Positions 42,944-48,113 of a stretch of DNA of 48,113 nucleotides are shown here, piece after piece. The notes under the pieces were generated by a model that saw nothing but the letters and a program-made list of their open reading frames with translations, searched no databases and had not been told where the DNA came from. Made by a program: the position numbers and the translations under genes. The stretch comes from Desulfarculus sp. (lineage in GTDB: Bacteria > Desulfobacterota > Desulfarculia > Desulfarculales > Desulfarculaceae), in contig JACRDC010000113.1 in the NCBI GenBank assembly GCA_016218705.1, positions 1 to 48,113 on the forward strand. Reading direction: 5' to 3'. Every line of letters starts with the position of its first letter. The stretch's first letter is position 1.

Positions 42944-43486
42944 CTAGCGCGCCGTCGCCGGCACGCCTTGCGGCTCGCCCCCCGGGGATGTGGCCGGCGG
43001 GGCGGGCTGGGCCGCTGGCTTGCCGCCTTCCGGGGGCGCTGGCGTGGGCGCCGCCGCCTCGCCGGCCTTCCGGGCGGCCTGGGCCGCGGCTTCTGGCAAT
43101 ATGCGCAACAGAACCGCTATGGGTGGGTCCTTACGGTTCGGGTCGGCCAGGTAGTACTGGTCCAGGGAGGCGGCCAGCTCACCCAGGCTCAGGCCCTTGA
43201 GCTGGGTCAGGGCCTGGGTGGAGCTTTTGGGCGCCAACTGCACGTACTGCAAAGCGTCCAGCACCCCGCGCAGATAGGAGAACTTGAGGAGCATCTCGTT
43301 CTGGTCGGCGTCGCCAGGGTGCCAGGCGCTGGCCGGCAACAGGCGCAGGTCCTGGGCGCCCTGCACCGGCGCCACCACGTAGGGATCCTCGGCCCCGGCC
43401 GGCGCCGCCGCCAGGCACAAGAGCAGGCCGAATAAAATCACGGACGGCTTCTTAAGTTTGTTGACAGTCCTTCCGATAAATGCCAT
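42944..43486 (-). CDS. Exported protein of unknown function
   Basis: A 180-residue protein with an N-terminal signal peptide ([19 protein letters not shown]) and a helical core of about 95 residues ([16 protein letters not shown], then [20 protein letters not shown]). A Pro/Ala-rich low-complexity C-terminus follows (about 135-180). The helical core loosely recalls small periplasmic proteins of the Rap1a/Tai type, but the match is not convincing. It is divergent from the giant coiled-coil gene with only 50 bases between start codons, so the two may share control and possibly function. Confidence 0.8.
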
Positions 43487-43536
43487 GATTTAATGACCTT
43501 TTTTAGGGCCTTCCCCAGGCCCCCCCGAGGGAGTGC
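43487..43536. promoter_or_regulatory. Short divergent promoter region
   Basis: Fifty bases separate two divergent start codons. An AT-rich stretch (TTTAATGACCTTTTTTAGGG) is followed by C-rich sequence and the GAGGGAG ribosome binding site. The promoters must overlap the coding starts or each other. Confidence 0.4.
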
Positions 43537-46500
43537 ATGAGCGATTCTTCTCCCAGCATAGCCCAACTGGTACCGCTGGTCGAGAAGTTGCGCGCCCTTT
43601 TGCGGGAACACCCCGCCGACCGCCCCTGGCAGGCCCCGGACAGTGGCCAGGCCTTGACCAGCCTGGGCCAGGACCTGGCCCAGTTGTGGCCCCACCTGGC
43701 CGAGCCGGGCGAGCCCCTGAGCCAAGATGTTCTCGACCACCTGCATCAGACCCGCCAGGCCGACCGCGACCGCCTGGCCGCCGGTCTGGCGCGGCGCCAG
43801 GAGGTCATGGAGCAGGCCTTGGCCCTGTTGGAGCGGCGGGCGCGCGCCGCCCAGGAGGCCGAGGCCGCCGCCTCCCAGGCCCTGGCGCGGGCCCAGGCCG
43901 CCGAGGAGGCCCCCGCCCAGGACTGGCGGCGGGCGCAGGCGCGGGTGGAGTCGCTGACCAAACAGTGCCGCAACCTGGCCCAGTGGCTGCATGGCGTGGA
44001 GCCCCTGGGCATCAACCGCTTCCGCGACGCCCAGGGCCGGGGCTTTGGCCGCGAGGTGGTGGAGGAATACGCCAGCCGCCTGCACAAGATGACCGAGGCC
44101 CTCAAACAGGTTCGCGCCCAGGAGGACCAGCGCCTAACCGGCCTGCACCAGGCCCGCCAGGCGGTGGCCCAGGCCAGCGAGCAGGCGCGCCTGGCCGGCC
44201 AGCGGCGCCAGGACCTGCAGGACGAGCTGCGCCGGCGTTCCTCCCAGATGACCAAGGGCCGCGCCGAGACGGCGGTCCTGAGGGCCAGCCTGGCCCAGGC
44301 CGAGGAGGACGCCCGCCGGGCCGGCCAACTGGGCCAGTTGTACCGGGAGGCCCTGACCCTGGCCGCCGGCCTGCTGCGGCCGGCCCTGGTGCCGGCCCCT
44401 CCGGCCTCCGACCCCTTGGCCGGGGCCAGCGCCGAACTGGAGGCCGCCGGCCGGGCCGGGCTCAAGGCCCAGCGCCTGGCCCGCCTGATCCAGCGCCAGG
44501 AGCGGCGCCTGGCCCTCTGGGGCGGCCAGGCCCAGGATGCCCTGGCCCAGGCCCGCGAGATTAACCGCGAGATCAAGCGCCTGGAAGAGGGCCTGCCCGC
44601 CCTTTTGGCCCCGCTGACCAGCCGGGACACGGCCACGCCGCCGGCCCGGGCCGGGGCCACGGCCAAGCTCTCCACCCTGCTGGCCCGCCTGGAGGAGCTG
44701 GCCCCCGGCGCCCGGCGGGTGCAGAGGCAACTATTCCAACCGCGCCTGCGCCTGCAACGTGGCCTGGAGCGCTGCAAATCCTGGCTGGAGGCCTGGCGTC
44801 TGGCCGGCAAAACCGAGCGCGCCCACTTGCAGCAGGCCCTGGCCCTCTTGGAGGAGGCCCGCCAGGCCGCCGGCGCCCAGGAGATCATGGCCCAGGAGCT
44901 CACCCGCCAGGTGGGGCCCCTGGCCCAAGCCCTGGAGGGGCTAAGGCCCCTGGACCTGTGGCCCAGCCTGGCCGCCGTGGCCCAGGGCGTGCGCTGCCAC
45001 CAGGACCAGGCCAGCCGGCTGCGGCAGCAGGCCGGCGAGATCAAGTCCCGCCTGGGGCCGCCCACGGTGGCCAGCCTGTCCAAGCCGCCGGCGGTGCTCA
45101 AGGAGCACGGCGCCCTGGCCCGGCGCCTCAGCGGTCAGAAGGTGGAGATGGAGCGCCTGGTTGCCATGCTGCGCTCCGCCCAGGGCTGGCGCACCCTCTT
45201 GGCCTCGCCGCTGTTGGCCCAGGCCCGCCGCCAGGCCGAGGAGGTGGCCAGGAACCTCTGCGGCAGCCTGGGCAAGGCCGCCAGCCAGCACCAGCGCCTC
45301 CAGGCCGGCCGGGGCCGGGTGGCGGCCCAGTTGCTGCGCCTGCGCCAGGAATTGGGCCAGGAACGCCGGCTCAGCGCCAGCCAGGAGCAAGAGCTTAACC
45401 AAACCCGCCTGCGGGCCCAGAACCAGGCCTCCCTCATCGTGCGCCTGGAGGACGATCTCCGGCAGGCCCTGACCGAGTTGGCCGGCGAACGCCAGGCGGC
45501 CCGGCGCCAGGTCCTGGAGCTCAAGGCCAGCCTGGCCCAAGAGGCCCAGGTCCGGGAGCAACTGGAGCGCTCCCTGGCCCATAGCGCCAACCAACTGGCC
45601 GGCCAGGAGTCCCTGCTGGACCAGCGCCTGGCCCGGGTGCAGGGGCTGGAGCGGCAACTGGCCAGCCAGGAGGCCTTGGCCGGCCAGCAGATAGCGGCCA
45701 TGGGCCGCGACCTGGGGCGCGAGCGCCAAACCGGCCAGGAGGCCCGCCGCCAATTGCAGGAGACCCGCCAGCGCCTGGCCCGGCGGGAATCGGCGGCCCT
45801 GGCCATTGCCCGGCAACTGCGCCAGGCCCGCCACCGTCTGGCCGATCTGCGCCAAGAGGCCGAGGCCCAGCGCCAGGCCGCCGCCACGGCCAAGCACTAC
45901 CTGAGCCGCACCCAGGCCCGCAACCTGCGCCTCAAGAACCAGGTGCGGTCCCTGGACGGCCAGCTCAGCCTGGCCCGCCAGGGCCAGGCCGCCGCCGTGG
46001 AGCTGATGGCCCAACTGGAAGCGGCGGGGGTGGACATGCGCCACCTGCGCCAGCGCTTGGACCAGAGCCAGCGCCTGGCCTCGGCCCTCAAGGACAAGTC
46101 CCTGGAGCGCCACCGCCTGCTGCAACAGGCCCGGGTGGCCCTGGCGCCCCTGCCCTACTGGCAGAACCAGGCCCAGGCCCTGGACCAGGAGTCGGCCCGC
46201 CTGCGCCAGGAGCTGCACGAGGCCCGCCAGGAGCTCAGCCGCGCCAAGGGCCAGATCATGGCCCTGGGCGCCGAGCGCGACGAGGCACGCGCCCGCCTGG
46301 CCAACGAGCAGGCCGCCCGTGCCCGCCAGGCCCTGGACCTCTTGCAGGGCCAGACCATGGCCGTGGAGCTGACCGCCACCCAGACCGAGGCCAGCCGCTG
46401 GGCGGCCCTGGCCGGCGACCTGGCCCAGGCCCTGATCCTCACCGGCCAGACACACCAGGAAGAAGTGGGGCGCCTGCGCTCCCAGGTCGGCGACCTGACC

Positions 46501-47913
46501 GCCCAGGCCCAGACCCTCAAGGCCCAACTGGACCGCCTGTCCCTGACCCTGGCCTTGTACAACCGCCCCGGGCAGCCCGGCCAGGGCCAGCCGGCGCGGG
46601 TACGCCTGACCAGCCTTACCCCCGCCCAGATGGACCGCGTGCTGGACCGCCTGGCGGCGGTGCGCGGCCGGCTCAAGCAACTGGGGCGCTCCACCCTGGG
46701 TCACTGGGCGCTCATCTTCGCCCTGACCACCGGCCTGGTCACCATCGCCCCCAGCACCCCCAGCAAGGCCACCCACATGGTCTCGCCGCTGTCGCCCCCC
46801 CGCGAGGAGGTGCGCCAGCTCAAGCAGGGCCTGAACTACGGCCCCACCTTCGACATCCCCGCCCAGGCCAGCCTGCACCAAAAGGCCCCGGCCCGGGCCG
46901 AGCTGGAAATGAACCTGGTGCCCCTGCGCAAGCAAAACCAGGAGCTGCCCGCCGGGGTGCGCGAGCAGGTGGCCAGCCTGGCCCGGCGCTCGGGGCTGTC
47001 GCCCCAGGTGCTACTGACCAGCGCCCGGGCGGCCTTCGGCGACCGCGAGGTGGTGGAGCCCGCCGCCCTGCACGAGCTGGCCGAGAACGCCCGCGGCCTG
47101 GCCCAGCGCCACCCGGCCATCTTCGCCGAGCTGTCCCAGCACGGCCTGCCCAAGCAGGCCCAGGACCTGGCCAAACTGGAGGCGGCCCCCGACAAGGCCC
47201 AGCACCTGTTCCTCGACCGCCTCTACCGCGAGTACCGCTCCCTGGGCTTCAACCCCGACGAGGCCCTGGGCGCGCTCACGGCCAACGAGCGCGCCATCCG
47301 GGGGCTCAAGGAAAACTGGCGCTCGCCCAATCTCTTCCAGGGCCAGGTGCGCCCCCTGGCCAGCCTGGAGACCCTGACGCTGACCGAGTTCATGGCCCGC
47401 ATCACCCCCTACATGGAAAGCCGCCTGGAATACTACCTGCGCGGCGGCGGCGTCACCTTCACCGGCGACATCAAGCTCTACGCCAAGAACCTGGCCTTTG
47501 ACATCTACTGCGCGGCCAAGAAGTTCGAGGTGCCGGTCTCCCTGATGCTCATGATCGCCCACCAGGAGACCACCTTCGCCAACGTGCTGGGCGACTCCAA
47601 CCGCTCGGCCAGCCCCTTCCAGATCTTCGAGCCCACCCGCAAGCTCATCATCGTCTCCATGGAGCGCCAGCGCTTCGTGGGCCCGCCCCAGGGCCTGGCC
47701 CTGGAGCGCCACCTGACCATGGCCACCTACATGGCCGCCTTCCACCTGCGCGAGCTGATGCAGGAGTCCTACCAGCCGGCCAGCGGCGGCCACCAGGCCT
47801 ACGTGGACACCGACAAGGTGCTCAAGCGCTACAACGGCTCCATGGCCTACATCGGGGCCGTGGCCGCCCGCCAGCGCCAGCTCAGCGCCTTCCTCAGCGG
47901 CGGCCGGAGTTGA
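43537..47913 (+). CDS. Giant coiled-coil protein with one membrane helix and a C-terminal transglycosylase-like domain
   Basis: A 1458-residue protein. Residues about 60-1040 are dominated by Gln, Ala, Arg, Leu and Glu in heptad-like patterns, an almost uninterrupted coiled coil. One hydrophobic helix (about 1055-1071, GHWALIFALTTGLVTIA) follows basic residues, placing the coiled coil in the cytoplasm and the rest outside. Residues about 1320-1450 have lysozyme-like features: E1344 in LMLMIAHQETTFANVLG, then SNRSASPFQIFEPTRKL in place of the usual GAxGLMQ, and YNGSMAYIGAVAARQRQL near 1432. Together these suggest a peptidoglycan-cleaving or peptidoglycan-binding domain tethered to a long cytoplasmic rod. 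The ATG follows GAGGGAG. No phage genes are nearby. The function is inferred from architecture only. Confidence 0.85.
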   Translation: MSDSSPSIAQLVPLVEKLRALLREHPADRPWQAPDSGQALTSLGQDLAQLWPHLAEPGEPLSQDVLDHLHQTRQADRDRLAAGLARRQEVMEQALALLERRARAAQEAEAAASQALARAQAAEEAPAQDWRRAQARVESLTKQCRNLAQWLHGVEPLGINRFRDAQGRGFGREVVEEYASRLHKMTEALKQVRAQEDQRLTGLHQARQAVAQASEQARLAGQRRQDLQDELRRRSSQMTKGRAETAVLRASLAQAEEDARRAGQLGQLYREALTLAAGLLRPALVPAPPASDPLAGASAELEAAGRAGLKAQRLARLIQRQERRLALWGGQAQDALAQAREINREIKRLEEGLPALLAPLTSRDTATPPARAGATAKLSTLLARLEELAPGARRVQRQLFQPRLRLQRGLERCKSWLEAWRLAGKTERAHLQQALALLEEARQAAGAQEIMAQELTRQVGPLAQALEGLRPLDLWPSLAAVAQGVRCHQDQASRLRQQAGEIKSRLGPPTVASLSKPPAVLKEHGALARRLSGQKVEMERLVAMLRSAQGWRTLLASPLLAQARRQAEEVARNLCGSLGKAASQHQRLQAGRGRVAAQLLRLRQELGQERRLSASQEQELNQTRLRAQNQASLIVRLEDDLRQALTELAGERQAARRQVLELKASLAQEAQVREQLERSLAHSANQLAGQESLLDQRLARVQGLERQLASQEALAGQQIAAMGRDLGRERQTGQEARRQLQETRQRLARRESAALAIARQLRQARHRLADLRQEAEAQRQAAATAKHYLSRTQARNLRLKNQVRSLDGQLSLARQGQAAAVELMAQLEAAGVDMRHLRQRLDQSQRLASALKDKSLERHRLLQQARVALAPLPYWQNQAQALDQESARLRQELHEARQELSRAKGQIMALGAERDEARARLANEQAARARQALDLLQGQTMAVELTATQTEASRWAALAGDLAQALILTGQTHQEEVGRLRSQVGDLTAQAQTLKAQLDRLSLTLALYNRPGQPGQGQPARVRLTSLTPAQMDRVLDRLAAVRGRLKQLGRSTLGHWALIFALTTGLVTIAPSTPSKATHMVSPLSPPREEVRQLKQGLNYGPTFDIPAQASLHQKAPARAELEMNLVPLRKQNQELPAGVREQVASLARRSGLSPQVLLTSARAAFGDREVVEPAALHELAENARGLAQRHPAIFAELSQHGLPKQAQDLAKLEAAPDKAQHLFLDRLYREYRSLGFNPDEALGALTANERAIRGLKENWRSPNLFQGQVRPLASLETLTLTEFMARITPYMESRLEYYLRGGGVTFTGDIKLYAKNLAFDIYCAAKKFEVPVSLMLMIAHQETTFANVLGDSNRSASPFQIFEPTRKLIIVSMERQRFVGPPQGLALERHLTMATYMAAFHLRELMQESYQPASGGHQAYVDTDKVLKRYNGSMAYIGAVAARQRQLSAFLSGGRS

Positions 47914-47938
47914 CCCAGGATTATCCTCGGACAGCAGT

Positions 47939-48113
47939 CTGATACCATTTTTACAACGATCAAATAGTATTAGGTTGTTGGCTCTTGATCCGGGCATCCT
48001 CTCTGGCCGGGGGACTTTGCTTTTTGGCCGCCCAAGCCCCGTGTCCCGCTCTTAGCCCGGCCATTCTTAGGGCACCGGCAGGGGGCTGCTATGATCCAAC
48101 CCGGCAAGGAATA
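47939..48113. repeat. Dispersed ~172-bp element, copy B (reaches the window edge)
   Basis: Homologous to 6967-7138. It begins CTGATACC and keeps the TAGTATTAGGTTGTTG segment and the 74 identical bases at 48025-48098. Its right boundary may lie beyond the window. It begins 26 bases after the stop of the giant coiled-coil gene. Confidence 0.8.

Follow-up and report, generated by a model that had tools for sequence, protein, structure and literature searches.

Single proteins that combine a wall-cutting enzyme with a long cytoplasmic coiled coil are, to our knowledge, few. The GH23 enzymes MltC and MltE of E. coli have no long coiled coil and are lipoproteins of the outer membrane. PodJ of Caulobacter crescentus has long cytoplasmic coiled coils, a single transmembrane anchor and a peptidoglycan-related periplasmic part that consists of TPR and a peptidoglycan-binding domain. 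This protein is shortened by proteolysis to PodJS (PMC8980812). In S. aureus, LtaS is cut by SpsB between Ala217 and Ser218, after the transmembrane domain (PMC10865820). The protein described here, P0001, is encoded in a 48,113-nt stretch of DNA from Desulfarculus sp. (the window), and it shares something with each of these systems. It resembles PodJ in layout only: its periplasmic part has a lysozyme fold, the two proteins come from different phyla, and no TPR or peptidoglycan-binding Pfam match was found in P0001. Its C-terminal domain is similar to MltC and MltE in predicted fold, catalytic Glu and order of motifs. However, it carries SPFQI in place of GLMQ and forms the tail of a mainly cytoplasmic protein. 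The likeness to LtaS lies in an extracellular enzyme freed by signal peptidase after a transmembrane part, although in P0001 the cleavage is only predicted, and LtaS is an unrelated enzyme of a Gram-positive organism with a polytopic N-terminus and no coiled coil. Taking all parts together, we put it at about an even chance that P0001 is a trans-envelope cell-wall organiser of the class to which Desulfarculus belongs.

The 1458-residue open reading frame of P0001 (43537..47913, + strand) is a real gene, homologues of which retain both frame and architecture. An RBS-like GGGAG precedes its ATG. The only promoter-like site in the region, TTGACA-17-CATGAT with a TG (43461..43489, +), is a consensus match (one found against 0.2 expected) and overlaps the start of the divergent gene for P0002. 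A terminator-like hairpin, again a consensus match, lies 3' of the gene (47927..47942, +), with five such hairpins found in the region against 2.2 expected, and the contig ends 200 bases past P0001. RNA families were not found at the locus. The full protein was unnamed in single-sequence searches of Pfam, NCBIfam and PHROGs, and a single-sequence search of the PDB gave nothing usable. Judged from its sequence, P0001 is an undescribed family assembled from known kinds of parts. What a first-pass annotation had observed here was borne out, as the reading frame, the coiled coil, the hydrophobic segment, the C-terminal motifs and the divergent gene are all present. Its interpretation held for the fold, the coiled coil, the chromosomal origin and the partner gene, while its view of the protein as tethered is doubtful and its suggestion that the domain binds rather than cuts is unlikely (see below).

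The cytoplasmic coiled-coil region covers residues about 60-1010 (43714..46566, +) and was recognised by a hydrophobic period of 3.5 residues. Over residues 395-1010 the hydrophobic power at this period was 9.3 SD above that of shuffled sequences, in agreement with the long cytoplasmic-type coiled coil claimed earlier, and residues 601-1000 contain two prolines, giving a proline-poor core at about 600-1000. In a protein of the second family described below (L082), residues 718-907 matched the crescentin rod below threshold (PF19220, E 2e-6, 27.5 bits against 100), probably as generic coiled coil.

An AlphaFold model was built on eight sequences. Its pLDDT was 72 overall and 80-94 over most helices of residues 1138-1458. 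A predicted periplasmic helical domain at residues about 1138-1280 (46948..47376, +; pLDDT mostly 80-90) was delimited by the modelled helices and a profile match; it is common to both families, the second family matching profile positions 66-276. It is followed by a lysozyme-superfamily, GH23-like lytic transglycosylase domain at residues about 1281-1458 (47377..47910, +). When this model was compared with the PDB by VIA-align, the first 33 of 50 matches were all of the lysozyme superfamily (Z 9.4 to 5.3), and the next, unrelated one had a Z of 4.9. The best were MltC (Z 9.4; 3.2 A over 122 residues), a Ralstonia GH23 chitinase (9.2) and MltE (9.0); goose lysozyme reached 7.1, and AtlE, EtgA, phiKZ gp144, Slt35, SltB1 and SltB3 were also among the lysozyme-type matches. 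The tool cautions that Z values below about 13 may be frequent with helical models. Here, the agreement of all leading matches and the motifs in register speak against chance, which supports the lysozyme-like or lytic-transglycosylase-like C-terminus proposed in the first-pass annotation. Foldseek alone gave no PDB match under E 0.001 (best E 0.13), and a profile-to-PDB search with P0001 returned only unrelated entries. Pfam SLT_2, SLT and SLT_4 matched at E 0.0021 to 0.24, all below cut-off, including the curated SLT sequence cut-off, and SLT_2 touched 12 of the 19 members of the alignment. With hhalign, the domain could be aligned to eight SLT domains of relatives over 116 columns (P 0.015, weak when taken alone). 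In the register of this alignment, Glu1344 (47566..47568, +), the predicted catalytic glutamate within HQET, falls on the catalytic Glu (the E of ES), and SPFQI at residues 1359-1363 (47611..47625, +; S, P and Q invariant) falls on GLMQ(I/L). The PT after it is placed on the GT/AT that comes after GLMQ, and YNGS at residues 1432-1435 (47830..47841, +; YNG invariant) on AYN-G. E1344-T-T-F, SPFQI and YNGS thus stand where they had been placed earlier. Among the features of GH23, the domain has the lysozyme-superfamily fold and a catalytic Glu in an E-S/T motif; in the GLMQ motif SP replaces GL, and only the Q and the I/L are kept.

A divergent gene for a 180-aa exported protein, P0002 (42944..43486, - strand), starts 50 bases from P0001. 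The protein has a signal-peptide-like N-terminus and a conserved body, and was found in ten genomes, all of which carry a P0001 homologue. It is divergent and adjoins the large gene in G000, G003, G006, G007, G009, G010 and G011, and in G002 and G005 it shares its contig with the N-terminal end of the large gene, again divergently arranged. In G013 it lies 288 bases from the contig end, so that the pairing is beyond view and linkage is seen in nine of the ten genomes. The divergent exported partner suggested by the first-pass annotation is therefore real, with its position beside the large gene conserved. P0002 matches were not found in f2, f6, f4 or genus g4, the last of which has the large gene without it. 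Two P0002 homologues gave matches to Rap1a (PF18602) below the cut-off, one with E 0.014 (16.3 bits against 27.7) and one with E 0.096; a PF18602 scan across relatives gave no match, controls included. The model of P0002 was helical and poor (mean pLDDT 58), and the only match in a PDB profile search, a designed repeat protein, was taken as chance. Immunity proteins of the Tai4 and Rap1a families are likewise small exported proteins encoded beside a wall-acting domain, and they are described as neutralising peptidoglycan-cutting effectors (PMC3852654, PMC3695027). However, the PF18602 matches of P0002 are far below cut-off, its partner domain is transglycosylase-like and not a peptidase or amidase, and no T6SS gene was seen beside it. 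From position and resemblance, our guess would be that P0002 is a regulator or brake of the lytic domain. In G007, a canonical SLT lytic transglycosylase gene (G007:C1:421076-421402, - strand; L116) lies about 500 bases beyond the P0002 homologue.

Homologues of P0001 were present in 18 of 20 f1 genomes, counting its own genome and a contig-end fragment in G003. The gene was absent from two near-complete f1 genomes of genus g4 (G014 and G017), genus mates of which have it, so it is not essential everywhere. The f1 homologues span seven genera, and others occurred in f2 and in a single f6 genome; named carriers are Desulfarculus sp. MAGs, Desulfocarbo indianensis, Dethiosulfatarculus sandiegensis and Desulfarculaceae JdFR-95. 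The architecture is kept in most Desulfarculales genomes (Desulfocarbo, Dethiosulfatarculus, Desulfarculus), where it is chromosomal; G007, a genome in one contig of 3,655,731 bases that carries the homologue, is presumably the cultured Desulfarculus baarsii. In a 345-genome sample of the phylum, matches were confined to members of the Desulfarculus-containing class. Apart from P0002, conserved context of the gene was not found across the Desulfarculales genera. Directly downstream in two Desulfarculus MAGs (L041:7859-8878, -; L009:340-1491, -) is a gene for an exported 340-aa protein with the C-terminus LKAQLSYRF, like an outer-membrane beta-barrel. The genomes each hold 1 to 7 other SLT-family matches, so P0001 is an addition to the usual enzymes.

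A profile search also detected homologues in family f4 of the same class that are longer, at 1650-2250 aa where complete. They retain the coiled coil, the hydrophobic segment and the helical domain and are alignable as far as the Glu region, the profile match stopping near position 276 of 389. Reading single residues by eye from the alignment, we found that Glu was replaced in 11 of 16 f4 homologues and kept in five, all from genus g11. SPFQI and the surrounding segment were missing in 16 of 16 aligned homologues, and YNG was absent in every one reaching that far. In the tree, a branch with 100/99 support separates the f4 sequences from the others; the root was not established. Loss of the lytic site in f4 appears more likely than gain, because GH23 is a family of enzymes and f2 and f6 also have intact sites. 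The trans-envelope body has outlived the enzyme in this second family, and the series from intact to decayed active sites separates a structural from an enzymatic role. In f4 loci (L080-L097; e.g. L083:501-2876, L080:5911-7659), a conserved 350-aa gene with weak likeness to methionine synthase/URO-D comes after the homologue, then FtsK in many loci or a RecN-like gene in genus g11, and in many a RACo-type corrinoid activator is divergent. The proximity of FtsK and RecN hints at the cell-cycle sphere, and it may be plain gene order.

The changed GLMQ motif and the decay in the second family raise the question of whether the C-terminal domain of P0001 itself is a catalytically dead glycan binder, as the first-pass annotation had considered. 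We find this quite improbable, in view of the constraint on the site. Across the query and 18 active-type homologues that are 34-86% identical to it, H1342, Q1343, E1344, A1348, N1349, L1351, G1352, D1353, S1357, S1359, P1360, Q1362, P1366, T1367, Y1432, N1433 and G1434 were invariant; HQE, the S-SP-Q core (S, S-P and Q) and YNG were kept in 18 of 18 homologues. That HQE, N, GD, S, SP, Q, PT and YNG do not vary down to 34% identity goes beyond the apparent need of a binding surface. The lytic domain is thus probably active in the Desulfarculales clade, as far as a fixed catalytic signature (HQE, the S-SP-Q core, YNG) can indicate, whereas binding rather than cutting is likely for the second-family relatives. 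Conservation of E1344 accordingly held for every homologue of its own clade and broke down in most second-family members, a result that is informative and not fatal to the idea. Phage tape-measure proteins can also unite a coiled coil, a membrane segment and a transglycosylase domain, and P0001 could in principle be such a protein after domestication. We regard this origin as extremely improbable and rejected it: the full protein had no PHROG match, no relative was found in 2.9 million viral contigs or 50,697 phage records, and the gene occurs throughout one class and is limited to it. Other genes in the window encode MurA, a glycosyltransferase, RNase III, an anaerobic ribonucleotide reductase (NRDD) and a DegP-like protease, with no phage gene and no tail-gene neighbourhood seen among the genes tested. 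As no homologue was seen in a prophage, the claim of a chromosomal, non-phage gene stands.

How the two halves of the protein are related after synthesis depends on residues 1056-1071 (46702..46749, +), the sole clear hydrophobic segment, which is like the h-region of a signal peptide. A hydropathy scan of all homologues showed a single hydrophobic segment with a basic (K/R) N-terminal flank in nearly all of them, K/R being fixed at one column before the core in 33 of 33 aligned sequences; the single helix after basic residues had been recognised correctly. Because the basic flank is on the N-terminal side, residues 1072-1458 are predicted to be periplasmic. The first-pass annotation took the segment as a permanent single-pass anchor that keeps the lytic domain always joined to the coiled coil. 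Such a tether, to which we give somewhat less than an even chance, agrees with the single positive-inside-flanked segment in nearly all homologues and with the coiled coil and periplasmic domain staying in one frame in both families. However, the segment is short for an anchor (the aligned core has about 13-16 residues, often with a proline next, before the putative cleavage site), and a conserved signal-peptidase-like alanine comes after it. This is Ala1078 (46768..46770, +), at -1 of a signal peptidase I-like site, PSKA|T. Ala stood at -1 in 18 of 18 active-type sequences having the region; position -3 was Ser, Thr, Ala or Gly in 16 of them and Pro in the other two (APEA, SPEA). In f4, a small-or-aliphatic-x-Ala sequence (ATA, ALA, AGA, ADA, AVA, AEA, AIA and similar) was read by eye from the aligned columns, as a motif only, in 15 of 15 sequences having the region. 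The linker around Ala1078 otherwise aligns poorly and has a pLDDT below 50, so structure does not explain the conserved alanine. A small-x-Ala after a short h-region and a basic n-region is thus kept in the homologues (2 of 33 with Pro at -3), and on these motifs the segment looks like a Sec signal peptide that lies a thousand residues from the N-terminus. Because the segment has these signal-peptide traits (length, basic n-region, proline, conserved small-x-Ala), signal peptidase may release the lytic domain, which would then not stay tethered. We tentatively consider, somewhat short of even probability, that signal peptidase I cuts after Ala1078 and so splits the product into a cytoplasmic coiled coil with a membrane tail and a lytic domain free in the periplasm, which is a variant of the organiser explanation that denies the tether. 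The basic n-region, the core of about 16 residues, the proline and the Ala at -1 recur across both families, and the processing of S. aureus LtaS by SpsB is a precedent (PMC10865820); on the other side, two homologues have Pro at -3 (APEA, SPEA), and AxA is fairly frequent by chance in Ala-rich sequence. The claim of a tether through one helix therefore holds for the single basic-flanked segment and is doubtful for the tether. It seems unlikely, if worth stating, that this would be a class-wide, cytoskeleton-like protein whose internal Sec signal peptide is cut by signal peptidase in every member, giving a membrane-tailed coiled coil and a stoichiometric free wall enzyme, with the enzyme half a pseudoenzyme in one family. 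If true, selection would keep coupled delivery and not cutting.

For P0001 as a trans-envelope organiser, we propose that the long coiled coil remains cytoplasmic and probably forms a rod or scaffold by self-assembly, while an internal signal-anchor sequence would send the C-terminus to the periplasm. There, the helical domain and the GH23-type domain, assigned by fold and motifs and with a presumed activity, would meet peptidoglycan. In Desulfarculales the intact site would probably make local cuts in glycan, perhaps once signal peptidase has released the domain, and P0002 may serve as its partner or brake. Second-family domains could at most bind or signal, because their lytic site has decayed. 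Since f4 lost this site and kept the rest, we infer that the conserved job of the whole protein is to link the cytoplasmic coiled coil to the wall, and not cutting as such, with lytic activity being optional. Because the genome that is probably D. baarsii carries the gene, an experimental test is possible. If the proposal is true, the protein would connect cytoplasmic organisation physically and directly with local remodelling of the wall, in a group of sulfate reducers and relatives whose cell shape and polarity have been little studied.
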